Under the pieces are notes generated by a model that saw nothing but the letters and a program-made list of their open reading frames with translations, was not told the DNA's origin and did no database searches. From NCBI RefSeq assembly GCF_002727185.1, contig NZ_NIZW01000023.1, positions 1-64,000 of the forward strand: 64,000 nucleotides of DNA. The letters are read 5' to 3'. The DNA is from Rhodopirellula bahusiensis (lineage in GTDB: Bacteria > Planctomycetota > Planctomycetia > Pirellulales > Pirellulaceae). The position numbers and the translations under genes were made by a program. This document shows positions 12,203-15,914 of this stretch, in pieces (position 1 is the stretch's first letter; each line of letters starts with the position of its first letter).

Positions 12203-12985
12203 ATGAGTTTCGATTCGATCACAGGAGTGACCAGTCTGCCGGATGATTTCGACGGACTGGTCCGGTTGTTTCCGCTTCCGGGAATGGTCTTGTTCCCTCA
12301 CGCGATGCAACCCTTGCACGTGTTCGAACCTCGCTACGTCGACATGTTGCAAGAAGCATTGTCGACCGATCATCTGATCACGATGGCGACGCTGACCAAT
12401 CAGCAGGGAAACGTCGCCATCGATGAAGTGACGAAGCTGAAGGTGCCGCTGAACATGTTGCCGCCCATCTCGCCAACCGTCTGTGTTGGCAAGATCATCT
12501 CGCACGCGGAACTAGAAGGCGATCGTCACAACATTCTGATCGTTGGGACTCGCCGCGCAACGGTGCGGCACGAACTGGAAACCGGGCGATCGTTCCGAAC
12601 CGCTCGCGTCGATTTGATTGACGACTTTTACTTGCCTGCGGGAACGAAGAAGCGAGCGGATCTGAAGAAACGCCTGCTTGAGGCGTTCGGGAAGATCATT
12701 CCTGTCAGCGAAGGATCTCAGAAGTCCTTGCACGATCTAATGGCGGGGCAGATGGGAGTCGGTCCGATCACCGACATCATCGCTTACACGTTGCCGTTTG
12801 ATCCGGAAGACAAGATCAGATTGCTGGCGATGTCGGACGTCGACGAACGAGCCGAGGCTTTGATTCGTCTGATCCAAAAAGGTGGCTTGGATTTGCAATC
12901 GGTCAGTGTGGAAGAAGGCAACGTTGATCTGGCTGAATCGTCGCGTTCACGGAAAGACTTTCCGCCTCCGTTCAGCGTGAACTGA
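12203..12985 (+). CDS. LON substrate-binding domain protein (stand-alone)
   Basis: The 260-residue protein carries the N-terminal substrate-recognition domain of Lon protease (LON, PUA-like fold) without the AAA+ ATPase or the protease. The hallmark is VRLFPLPGMVLFPHAMQPLHVFEPRY (residues about 20-45). The C-terminal half is helical and ends in a polar tail. Stand-alone LON proteins are common in bacteria and mostly uncharacterised; roles in substrate recognition or sensing are proposed. The start codon is three bases after the BI-1 stop. It has no obvious signal peptide, so it should be cytoplasmic. Confidence 0.83.
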   Translation: MSFDSITGVTSLPDDFDGLVRLFPLPGMVLFPHAMQPLHVFEPRYVDMLQEALSTDHLITMATLTNQQGNVAIDEVTKLKVPLNMLPPISPTVCVGKIISHAELEGDRHNILIVGTRRATVRHELETGRSFRTARVDLIDDFYLPAGTKKRADLKKRLLEAFGKIIPVSEGSQKSLHDLMAGQMGVGPITDIIAYTLPFDPEDKIRLLAMSDVDERAEALIRLIQKGGLDLQSVSVEEGNVDLAESSRSRKDFPPPFSVN

Positions 12986-13041: not shown

Positions 13042-13087
13042 AAAAAACCCGTCTGCTGAGACCAAGGTAACCATCTCAGCAAACGGG
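13042..13087 (-). terminator. strong intrinsic terminator on the minus strand
   Basis: On the minus strand, arm 13087-13074 pairs with 13061-13048 over 14 bases including one U-G wobble, around a 12-base loop. It is followed at once by six T (13047-13042). No protein-coding gene on the minus strand lies upstream of it, so it implies a short non-coding or peptide-coding transcript. On the plus strand the stem has a mismatch and no U tract, so it is a poor terminator for the LON gene. Confidence 0.75.
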
Positions 13088-13200
13088 CGATGCTCGCGTT
13101 CTAGAAAGTGATCGCGAGTGGGGTGGCTGACCCTGGCGTCAGCCCGCCGACTTTCGTCAAGGGTTTCCACCCCGTTGGCTAGTACAGCAATAATCCACTT

Positions 13201-13213
13201 GATCACCTCCTTT
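13201..13213 (-). promoter_or_regulatory. perfect 13-base Shine-Dalgarno-like sequence
   Basis: On the minus strand the sequence AAAGGAGGTGATC is fully complementary to the usual 3' end of bacterial 16S rRNA (GATCACCTCCTTT). A GTG follows two bases later at 13198, opening a 13-codon frame (GTG to TGA, 13198-13157) that encodes MDYCCTSQRGGNP. Most genes in this window have only weak ribosome binding sites, so a perfect one in front of a tiny frame is exceptional. It could drive a leader peptide or let the RNA bind 16S directly. Confidence 0.55.
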
Positions 13214-13394
13214 GAAAATTTGGTTCGACGCCACTTGCCCAGGTGCCAACCAGAACAGACAAGCGAACGTGCGGAAGTTTCGTTGCGACGCGGAATCGCA
13301 ACCCGTTGACGACATGATCGTCGGTAGTCAAGACGCATGCAACTGAAATCAGGTTCGCGGCCGCGAAACGAAAACCGAGTGGAATTCTGAGCCC

Positions 13395-13745
13395 ATGACT
13401 TCGAAGCCCCAAAAATCTTCCGATTGGACCGCCAGAGAATCGGAATCCGATCCGATGCGAGCCGCGTTTGTTCGCACGATCGAGAACCTGCGTCCGGGCG
13501 AAGTGGTCAGCTATGGTGACGTCGCCGCGCGAGCCGGCTACCCACGTCGGCACCGAGCGGTGGGGCAATTGCTCGGTGCATCGTTCGATGCGTTGCCCTG
13601 GTGGCGTGTGGTCTACAACGATGGGCGATTGCCGCCAGTGAACCCTTCGCTGCAAGAGCAACGACTGCTCGAGGAAGGCGTGGCGATGAAACGCATGCGA
13701 GTCGTGGAATCACCTCTGGGAAGGTTTGCATCCTCGTCGAAATGA
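13395..13745 (+). CDS. alkyltransferase-like protein (ATL)
   Basis: The 116-residue protein is the DNA-binding domain of the O6-alkylguanine-DNA alkyltransferase family without a catalytic cysteine. GEVVSYGDVAARAG (34-48) holds the conserved Tyr and helix-turn-helix, and RHRAVGQLL (52-60) holds the arginine finger. The active-site PCHRV appears as PWWRV (68-72), with Trp in place of both Cys and His. Characterised ATL proteins bind O6-alkylguanine, flip it out and flag it for nucleotide excision repair without removing the alkyl group. The same role is likely here. It stands alone, divergent from the candidate RNA. Confidence 0.85.
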   Translation: MTSKPQKSSDWTARESESDPMRAAFVRTIENLRPGEVVSYGDVAARAGYPRRHRAVGQLLGASFDALPWWRVVYNDGRLPPVNPSLQEQRLLEEGVAMKRMRVVESPLGRFASSSK

Positions 13746-13810: not shown

Positions 13811-14113
13811 TCAATCAGCCGACTGCGTCGCGAGCAGGTGTTGCAGGGCTTTCGCGTTTTGCGGAGCCAGCATCTCGACGGTTCGCAATGATTGCTTGGC
13901 GTCCGATGGATTGCCTGCCACCAAATTCGCTAGCGCAGCCAGGGACGCGACCGCCTCGCTGCGCCGCAGTGTGTTGATGGACGACAAGTCGGCTCGGCAG
14001 CGTCGACATTGGTCCGAGACAACCTGTTTGGCACGGCAAACGGGGCAGGTCAATGACAACGGGGTTGGGCTTGTTGGGAGTTCGCCGGCGGCGGTGTCGC
14101 TGAGATCAGGCAT
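13811..14113 (-). CDS. small zinc-ribbon protein in the Hsp70 operon
   Basis: The 100-residue protein starts at the ATG at 14113, inside the end of the Hsp70 gene (8-base overlap), which suggests translational coupling. A zinc ribbon CPVC-x8-CRRC (residues about 25-40) is followed by a helical domain (LRRSEAVASLAALANLV, then SLRTVEMLAPQNAKALQHLL) resembling one or two TPR-type helices. I do not recognise a named family. Its position at the 3' end of a J/GrpE/Hsp70 operon suggests a co-chaperone or substrate adaptor, which is inference from context alone. Confidence 0.65.
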   Translation of the reverse strand: MPDLSDTAAGELPTSPTPLSLTCPVCRAKQVVSDQCRRCRADLSSINTLRRSEAVASLAALANLVAGNPSDAKQSLRTVEMLAPQNAKALQHLLATQSAD

Positions 14114-15914
14114 CGTTGAGATAGAAAAGGAGGTCTTCGAGCGCTTCGACTTTTTCGGCAAACGCTTCGGAATTGTTGCTGATAGCGGCGACTTTCAACT
14201 GATCCACCAAGTCATCGATCTCCTCTGCATCTTGTTCGTCAGCGTTCTGGCGGGTCGCGTGGATCGATGGCATCAATTCATCGAGTCGCCGCGTCAGAGT
14301 GTTGCTGGGTTTGGATTCAGCTTCCAGTGCCTCGTCGGTTTGAGACGACTGGGCCTCGTCTATTTGAGACGGTTGGCCTGCAGGGACGCGTCCGAGCATC
14401 TCTGAGATCTCGTCCGCCGAAACCGAACCGAACTCGGTTTGTGATCCCGCCTGTTTCGATGATTCGTTCAAACGCTTGATCTCAGCGGAAGCCTCTTTGC
14501 CCGTTCGTCGGTCGACAGCGCGGACCTCCAGCATCCCGTTCAGATTCATCGTGAATGTCACCGAGATGGGACTGTCAGCGGGCGAGTCGGGATCCAGGTC
14601 GGCCAGTTCGACTTCCCCAACAAAGATGTTTTCGGTCACGACCGCGGCTTCTCCTTGGAAGACCTCCGTCGAAACCTCTGTCTGACCTGGGACCATGGTG
14701 TAGAAGGTTTGCGATCGTTTACAGGGAAGAGCGCTACCGCGGGGAATGATGGGCGCGAAAGCATTCGCGGGCCCCAGCGGATCGCGAGTCTCGGCACAGC
14801 GAACCCCAAGCGTGTGAGGCGTGATTTCGATCAAGACTCGGTCGACGTCTTGTCCCGACAACAGAGCACCCTGCACGGCCGCGCCCAAAGCCACGCAAAG
14901 ATCGGGATCAATTTCTGCCGATGGTCGGTGCCCCAGTTTCTGAGTCAATAGTTGTTCGACCAGAGGTGTCCGGGTGCTGCCGCCAACGAGGATCACTTTG
15001 TCGAGTTGTCCGGCATGCAAACCAGCATCTTTGAGAGCGGAATCGACACACGAGATCGTTCGATCCAAAAGTGGCTCGATGGACTGTTCGTAGTCATTCC
15101 GTTCCAGCGTCGTTTCCAGGTGGCTGGAGGGATTCCCGGGCAGCAAGAACTCTTCCGCGACCTCGGTGAATGTGTCGAAGCTCAGGCGTCGCTTGGCCGC
15201 TTCGGCTGACAAGGACAAACGTGCCATCGCACCGACATCAGCAAGTACGGATTCCTGCAAATCCCCCGTTGCGTTCACCAATTGGTTGCACAGGAGAGCG
15301 TCAAAGTCGTCCCCGCCGAGGTGCGTGTCGCCAAACGTGGCCAGGACTTCGACGACGCCGGATTCGATGGCAACGATCGAAACATCAAACGTGCCACCGC
15401 CCAAGTCATAAACGAGCACCTTGTGCGGATCGTGACTTTGCGAATCGTAAACCAAGGCGGCAGCGGTCGGTTCGTTCACAATCCTCAACACTTCCAAACC
15501 CGCCAGTTCGCCGGCGTGGCGGGTGGCTTCCCGTTGGCCATCATCGAAGTAGGCGGGCACGGTGATCACGGCGCGGTTGACTTCGCATCCGAGGTCTTGT
15601 TCCGCCCACTGACGAAGGCGTCCCAGGATCACGGCGGAAACTTCAGGCGGCGAAAGTTGTTTTTCACCGAGAGTGAGTTGGACATGCTCACCCATCTTTC
15701 GCTTGACGCTGCGAATCGTCGATTCAGGGAACAAGGCGGCTTGATTGAGTGCAGGTTGACCAACCAACATATTGCCGGACGGATCCAGCCCAACGACACT
15801 GGGAAGGACAGCCTCACCCGTTTCCGGGTTCTTGATCACTCGGGGAGTGCCGTTTTCAACGACAGCGACCACGCTGTTGGTCGTCCCTAAATCGATCCCG
15901 ATCGTCGGTTGCAT
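14106..15914 (-). CDS. Hsp70 family chaperone (DnaK paralogue)
   Basis: Hsp70 proteins bind and release unfolded polypeptides under control of ATP hydrolysis. The 602-residue protein has the full ATPase domain: phosphate loop 1 IGIDLGTTNSVVAVVENG, the NEPTAAALVYD and DLGGGTFDVSI loops, and VILVGGSTRTPLV. The beta-sandwich substrate domain follows (about 385-500), then a short, poorly conserved helical lid rich in acidic residues. The C-terminal EEVD-like or DnaK tail is absent. It is slightly shorter than standard DnaK (about 640) and shares its operon with a divergent GrpE and a degenerate J protein, so it is better seen as a specialised paralogue than as the main housekeeping DnaK. Confidence 0.9.
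   Translation of the reverse strand: MQPTIGIDLGTTNSVVAVVENGTPRVIKNPETGEAVLPSVVGLDPSGNMLVGQPALNQAALFPESTIRSVKRKMGEHVQLTLGEKQLSPPEVSAVILGRLRQWAEQDLGCEVNRAVITVPAYFDDGQREATRHAGELAGLEVLRIVNEPTAAALVYDSQSHDPHKVLVYDLGGGTFDVSIVAIESGVVEVLATFGDTHLGGDDFDALLCNQLVNATGDLQESVLADVGAMARLSLSAEAAKRRLSFDTFTEVAEEFLLPGNPSSHLETTLERNDYEQSIEPLLDRTISCVDSALKDAGLHAGQLDKVILVGGSTRTPLVEQLLTQKLGHRPSAEIDPDLCVALGAAVQGALLSGQDVDRVLIEITPHTLGVRCAETRDPLGPANAFAPIIPRGSALPCKRSQTFYTMVPGQTEVSTEVFQGEAAVVTENIFVGEVELADLDPDSPADSPISVTFTMNLNGMLEVRAVDRRTGKEASAEIKRLNESSKQAGSQTEFGSVSADEISEMLGRVPAGQPSQIDEAQSSQTDEALEAESKPSNTLTRRLDELMPSIHATRQNADEQDAEEIDDLVDQLKVAAISNNSEAFAEKVEALEDLLFYLNDA

Follow-up and report, generated by a model that had tools for sequence, protein, structure and literature searches.

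A conserved structured RNA gene of planctomycetes with a mini-ORF behind an extended Shine-Dalgarno sequence

The minus strand of a 64,000-nucleotide stretch of the Rhodopirellula bahusiensis genome (contig NZ_NIZW01000023.1; hereafter the window) almost certainly carries a conserved, separate gene for a structured RNA of about 270 bases (~266 nt, 13307 to 13042). Judged from its sequence and from the absence of an Rfam match at threshold, this RNA is probably the type of a family new in planctomycetes. The RNA combines covarying helices with a short reading frame whose Shine-Dalgarno (SD) sequence is complementary both to the 16S rRNA tail and to a segment further 3' in the same molecule. We tentatively favor a translation-operated, dual-function regulatory RNA, in which a ribosome-driven switch would be joined to action in trans, a reading drawn from sequence and folding models.

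Regulatory RNAs on record for these lineages are few; for the PVC group as a whole, one review lists eight distinct annotated sRNAs (PMC9029176). The RNA is almost always single-copy, occurs in two large families and beyond, and keeps a mini-ORF with a near-maximal SD, all of which recommends it strongly as a candidate core regulator of translation in planctomycetes. It also offers a clean test of whether a free-standing RNA can carry an ORF that serves through the translation of a few codons and not through its product.

Extent, layout and distribution of the RNA gene

The RNA gene occupies a gap between two plus-strand genes and points away from the upstream one and toward the downstream one (Table 1). 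The gap is otherwise free, in keeping with the initial annotation, which had noted the lack of a minus-strand gene upstream. That annotation covered 13042..13213 (-), the 3' two-thirds of the gene; the unit continues ~95 nt in the 5' direction and takes in H1, H2 and a promoter-like site. We place the RNA at ~13307 to 13042 because this promoter-like site lies upstream and a terminator downstream, an arrangement that points to transcription as a unit of its own. The protein encoded upstream (116 aa) contains only the O6-methylguanine methyltransferase DNA-binding domain (PF01035), and we take it to be possibly an alkyltransferase-like protein. A 602-aa HSP70 protein is encoded at 14106-15914 (-) in the window.

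Table 1. Features of the RNA gene and its flanks, in window positions
Feature	Position	Strand	Description
Lon-substrate-binding-domain protein	12203-12985	+	downstream of the RNA, convergent
Whole RNA gene	13042..13307	-	promoter-like site, H1, terminator; probable 5' start ~7 nt past the -10, 3' end in the U run
Intrinsic terminator	13042..13087	-	hairpin 13087-13048, then U6; from sequence and fold
P4 hairpin	13093..13118	-	CUCGCG...CGCGAG; thermodynamic prediction
GAUCACUUUCU in P4	13103..13113	-	can pair with the SD over 11 bp, G-U included; resembles the 16S tail
P1b 3' arm	13122..13126	-	CCACC; pairs with GGUGG
P3 hairpin	13127..13142	-	CUGA...UCAG; 90.1% of cells paired, double changes in 3/4 pairs
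Mini-ORF	13157..13198	-	GUG start, 13 codons MDYCCTSQRGGNP, UGA stop
P1b 5' arm	13167..13171	-	GGUGG; codons 10-11 of the mini-ORF
Extended SD	13201..13213	-	AAAGGAGGUGAUC; fully complementary to the 16S tail (...GGCTGGATCACCTCCTTTCTAAGG) over 13 nt
H2, second 5' stem-loop	13232..13265	-	arms CGCUUGUC...GGCAAGUG; RNAalifold
H1, 5' hairpin	13282..13302	-	loop (A)CGC in most homologues
Promoter-like site	13314..13342	-	-35 TTGCAT (13342-13337), 17 nt, -10 GATCAT (13319-13314)
MGMT-domain protein	13395-13745	+	upstream of the RNA, divergent

Upstream alignments revealed a -35/-10-like pair ending ~10 nt 5' of H1. TTG-type matches form a main cluster 36-45 nt ahead of H1 and a lesser one at 21-30 nt, in a count where overlapping patterns can be scored twice. 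The paired arrangement is present in 62 of 102 homologues (a sample of the 107 distinct ones) versus 2.4% of shuffled segments; a general sigma-70 score separates less well (8.25 vs 7.66 in shuffles), and a consensus scanner for sigma-70 promoters and terminators found neither at the window locus. Downstream, a terminator-like hairpin followed by a T run is found in 85 of 106 homologues.

The neighborhood bears on whether the RNA is a leader, a reading that the initial annotation had allowed; a cis leader would control the next gene as an attenuator or as a riboswitch. The mini-ORF, alternative stems and terminator do recall amino-acid attenuators; the next gene in the window, however, is convergent. 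The window's neighbors lie within 1.5 kb in just 6 of 23 loci, the window's own among the six, and in 13 loci of other genomes the flanking sequences, inspected by eye, differ except among close relatives. Because its neighbors vary between loci, the RNA is almost certainly a gene of its own, and the leader reading is very improbable.

A BLAST search with 190 nt of the RNA matched 23 of 60 relatives, the source genome included: 13/13 in the genus, 10/24 among other family members and 0/23 in other families of the order. A search of plasmids with the RNA gave no BLAST matches. Broader searches used R1, a covariance model of the RNA core built from 18 sequences with 114 model positions; they ran with strict filters, which lose weak matches. 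R1 matched 192 of 241 genomes in the window's family, once each except in G124 and G217, and 115 of 170 in a second family of the same class (f21). A phylum-wide sample gave 35 of 392 genomes, all within these two families, and a class sample gave 169 of 397 at E 0.01, spread over twelve families, the matches in f22 and f118 being weak. The gene is almost always present as one copy per genome.

At the gathering threshold, Rfam 15 returned no match in the window and, across 10 homologous loci, only a tRNA; within the one open-access literature collection consulted, no description of the RNA was found. The initial annotation's proposal of a small, structured RNA that has a terminator of its own and possibly belongs to a new family is thus supported by covariation, a wide and almost always single-copy spread and the lack of an Rfam match at threshold. 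Its "noncoding" label is not supported, as an ORF with an extended SD is kept in 107 of 107 distinct homologues. A purely noncoding RNA is rejected, since the reading frame is kept.

For the alignments, rows L024-L027 were dropped, being second pieces of loci already counted plus a 23-nt chance hit, and L245 was left out (anchor not located). The resulting 137 sequences were reduced to 107 distinct ones, of which 76 form the core alignment after removal of 24 near-duplicates and of seven rows whose 3' parts diverge (L219, L236, L237, L239, L271, L273 and L274).

Conserved helices

The initial annotation had assigned a set of stems and a terminator to the minus strand; they are present there, terminator hairpin and six U included, and the minus strand folds better. 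For 13225-13036 (190 nt), the minus strand reaches -81.9 kcal/mol (z -6.6) and the plus strand -70.0 kcal/mol (z -3.9), with 0 of 200 shuffles as good in either case. Extending the fold to 269 nt gives a z of -4.1. When 15 homologues were compared with shuffles in a cruder way, as pieces of 250 nt, the mean z was -2.6, and only -1.2 at the window's own locus, so fold energy by itself is modest evidence; covariation is strong evidence.

The 5' hairpin H1 covaries in 7 of 7 pairs, with 97.2% of cells paired across 72 sequences, a percentage that is somewhat flattering because rows without a clean H1 (L198, L218, L270) were excluded from the 75. It holds 115 double-change cells versus 31.2 ± 4.2 in shuffles, and slid versions of the helix drop to 10-52% paired; the starts of L192 and L248 were set by hand. 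For H2, RNAalifold on 23 sequences gives five pairs; each pair shows a double change in 2-12 of the sequences and is broken or gapped in 1-6.

Further 3', in the core, P1b joins a segment inside the mini-ORF to a segment beyond its stop codon. The GGUGG:CCACC pairing is kept in 97.9% of cells across 76 sequences, with double changes in 4 of 5 pairs and compensatory replacements by GGAAG:CUUCC, GGUAG:CUACC and GGUGA:UCACC. Together, the 18 pairs of the tested core structure contain 52 double-change cells in the 76 sequences versus 19.7 ± 3.3 when shuffled; this structure was derived from the window's sequence, which favors it over slid versions. Homologues in 23 of 60 relatives and the covariation of H1, P1b and P3 bear out the proposal of a structured RNA and lead us to reject an isolated chance structure.

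The first folded domain past CCACC has at least seven pairs in 75 of 76 homologues, a count from predicted folds without shuffle control or covariation count. The MAFFT alignment of P4 is too ragged for pair counts, and its differing arms are known from predicted folds only. A possible outer CGRG:CUCG extension of P1b, whose CUCG is common to P4, pairs in 85.3% of cells, and 2 of its 3 pairs show double changes, but in just three and two sequences. In part of the genus (L007-L013), P4 is ~25-45 nt larger between its arms, and several of these loci carry an extra predicted hairpin.

A GAAA-tetraloop hairpin at 13160-13147, prominent in the initial annotation, did not hold up as a functional element: of 76 homologues, 5 have its sequence, and the pairing is kept no better than in shuffled controls. 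The argument that the initial annotation drew from a GNRA loop therefore fails. The segment contains the stop codon of the mini-ORF.

Past this stop codon, GGCGGGCUG (13148-13140 (-)) is among the most conserved segments of the RNA and is exact in 48 of 76 sequences. No single stem accounts for its conservation, and it may be a protein- or RNA-binding site.

The mini-ORF and its Shine-Dalgarno sequence

The extended SD, AAAGGAGGUGAUC, is followed by a GUG start codon 7 nt past its GGAGG. The genomes of six relatives were searched for the matching 16S tail, and three of them gave it as GGCTGGATCACCTCCTTTCTAAGG; the Rfam SSU model gave no match in the source genome, where the 16S gene must therefore be missing or masked. 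The 13-mer itself occurs at two sites in that genome, the second of which does not precede a start codon.

A start codon, sought at five spacings from the SD, and a nearby stop are kept in 107 of 107 distinct homologues. The start is GTG in 100, TTG in 6 and ATG in 1; the stop is TAG in 55, TAA in 31 and TGA in 21. The ORF has 13 codons in 86 of the 107 and ranges from 12 to 18. In all 76 sequences of the core alignment, the start and GGUGG are spaced by 24, 27, 30, 33 or 36 nt, and the 11 that depart from 27 nt each do so by a multiple of three, representing fewer than 11 independent indel events, since the rows are related. Two loci, L257 and L263, have a 1-nt deletion past GGUGG that moves the stop to codon 14 rather than 13.

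Within the 86 ORFs of 13 codons, constraint reaches below the amino acid level. At codon 5 the wobble position is frozen (TGT 80, TGC 0), and at codon 7 every Ser is encoded by AGC (76). At codon 11, Gly is replaced by Ser in nine and by Asp in six sequences, with a compensating change in the other P1b arm. The frame looks selected because the start, the short length and the stop are kept and indels come in threes; the RNA looks selected too because wobbles are frozen and codon 11 follows its stem partner. The opposite case raised by the initial annotation, a protein reading frame preserved instead of the stems, does not apply, frame and stems both being kept.

Codons 4-8, CUGUANNNGCCA (13187-13176 (-)), are conserved across codon boundaries, wobbles included. 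A pairing partner for this segment, looked for by eye, was not found.

The peptide has a consensus of about MxxxCTSQRGGxx, in which C5, S7, Q8, R9 and G10 are common. A micropeptide gene whose structured mRNA controls its own translation would account for the retention of start, stop, length and several residues. Such a gene would need neither H1 nor H2, however, and it would leave the frozen wobbles at codons 5 and 7 and the tracking of the stem by codon 11 to be explained, while residues 2-4 and 12-13 vary; we consider it unlikely. Conservation seems instead to act on the RNA, with the frame kept open and the peptide secondary.

The mini-ORF is very probably translated. Because its SD matches the 16S tail perfectly, reading by the ribosome may well be part of how the RNA works. 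This bears on a further alternative, an sRNA that acts in trans by base pairing and whose ORF affects nothing but the stability or turnover of the RNA. That alternative fits the stand-alone layout with its promoter-like site and terminator, as well as conserved segments that lack an established partner, GGCGGGCUG among them; the SD, start and stop are nevertheless too strong and too persistent for incidental translation, which renders it improbable.

Alternative pairing, a possible ribosome-driven switch and known systems

The initial annotation had suggested that P1 and P3 may compete as alternative conformations. Such competition is plausible in another form, between pairing of the SD with its complement and formation of hairpin P4. 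P4 often carries a piece of the 16S tail that is complementary to the SD: the motif GATCAC stands at this site in 30 of 76 homologues versus 1.0 in shuffles, and GATCACC in 21 versus 0.26, these rows being related rather than independent. The best SD complement in P4 averages 7.9 bp versus 6.1 in shuffled P4; it is 5 bp or shorter in 7 of 76, so SD:P4 pairing is not universal. The SD:P4 pairs hold in 86.5% of cells, and a sixth pair holds in only 45.9%. Double changes occur in 2 of the 5 pairs; since the ribosome fixes the SD, there is little variation among them.

In energy the two forms are close. For the window's RNA, the closed form, with the SD paired to P4, is predicted at -48.6 kcal/mol versus -45.8 for the open form, a difference of 2.8 in favor of closing. 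The calculation covered 61 of the 76 sequences, the other 15 having either a long P4 domain or less than 6 bp of SD match; the closed form is better in 25 and the open form in 36, with the open form favored by 1.2 kcal/mol on average over all 61.

These observations suggest the following mechanism. In the closed form, the SD would be paired with GAUCAC of P4. A 30S subunit would bind the 13-nt SD through the 16S tail and initiate at GUG, and the ribosome would read ~13 codons and stop directly 5' of a conserved CGGCGGG segment. On the ORF it would melt P1b, since GGUGG sits inside the reading frame, and a loaded ribosome would hold the SD apart from its P4 complement. In this ribosome-loaded form, the 3' part, composed of CCACC, P3 and P4 with its mimic of the 16S tail, would be free for action in trans, most simply by pairing with the SD regions of other mRNAs. 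We prefer this dual-function reading, tentatively, because the SD/P4 alternatives are close in energy and a ribosome would free CCACC, P3 and P4. Two marks of dual-function RNAs, an apparently selected ORF and conserved RNA structure, are both found here.

A more specific version, a class-wide ribosome-state switch, is possible but doubtful: the signal would lie in the act of reading a minimal ORF and not in its peptide. Besides its perfect anti-16S sequence, the RNA has a 16S-tail mimic in many lineages, and the supply of free 30S subunits would set how far this mimic is exposed to other mRNAs. The CC2171-type RNAs discussed below would then form a second family built alike, either independent or very old.

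The perfect SD also invites a reading as a ribosome-binding decoy or sensor, which would capture 30S subunits, use the ORF as a turnstile, and damp or report initiation capacity without mRNA targets. A 13-nt SD match ahead of a 13-codon ORF that holds few ribosomes fits this idea, as does a peptide apparently subordinate to the RNA, and for S. aureus SprF1 a published table gives ribosomes as a target, under "translation attenuation" (PMC9266662). A decoy would have no need of the conserved H1, H2 and P3, however, and a single-copy gene would need very strong expression to serve as one, which makes this reading unlikely.

The nearest Rfam family is CC2171 (RF01867) of Alphaproteobacteria, which Rfam files as an sRNA. 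The window matches its model weakly (21.7 bits, E 0.014; gathering threshold 75), and the match is sharp only over the first 35-40 nt, which hold the SD and start. A scan of genome contigs with an SD-start pattern returned at least 120 stretches, of which 80 were examined. Among these 80 matches listed, one is from a planctomycete (TBK1r, CP036432.1, L090) and the rest are from Proteobacteria, nearly all Alphaproteobacteria by title. Among the matches listed (L041-L120 except L090), 77 of 79 are readable to a stop, with 75 ORFs of 21-26 codons and 75 starting with VSHC, letters that the search pattern itself favors. Most of 14 alphaproteobacterial-type loci inspected by eye look like stand-alone units with a terminator-like hairpin. 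From their shared consensus start, these pattern-found loci are probably CC2171 RNAs.

Like the window's RNA, the CC2171-type RNAs carry AAAGGAGGUGAUC-N-A-GUG and a mini-ORF, which among the matches listed is mostly 21-26 codons long with a VSHC start rather than 13 codons long. Beyond the SD, R1 found no clear common body: run on 37 of 79 alphaproteobacterial-type loci, it gave a best E of 0.03, and the eight best matches span 42-71 nt of RNA versus the 114 model positions. With a score far below the gathering threshold and an ORF that differs in length and residues, membership of the window's RNA in CC2171 is highly unlikely. The two appear to share a design, not demonstrable descent. The similar design in RNAs filed as sRNAs suggests that mini-ORFs have been overlooked in some "noncoding" RNAs.

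Leader-peptide attenuators and arrest peptides likewise place a short ORF inside alternative stems. Attenuators, however, need a conserved co-directional downstream gene, which the loci compared above lack. The Rhodopirellula-1 motif has been catalogued as a cis-regulatory element of Proteobacteria and Planctomycetes, with no Rfam number (Weinberg et al. 2010, PMC2864571); it may be identical with the RNA described here.

RNAIII and SprF1 of S. aureus are, by analogy, the nearest functional counterparts. The 3' loops of RNAIII pair with the SDs of its targets, and RNAIII, like the RNA proposed here, is a structured RNA that is both regulator and mRNA; it differs in being twice as long, in having a known peptide product and in belonging to another phylum. 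It is listed with 514 nt, the Hld ORF and translation inhibition of its targets (PMC9266662). SprF1 is listed in the same source with 138 nt, no ORF, and targets that include sprG1 and ribosomes; unlike the window's RNA, it is shorter, lacks a reading frame and has sprG1 as a target.
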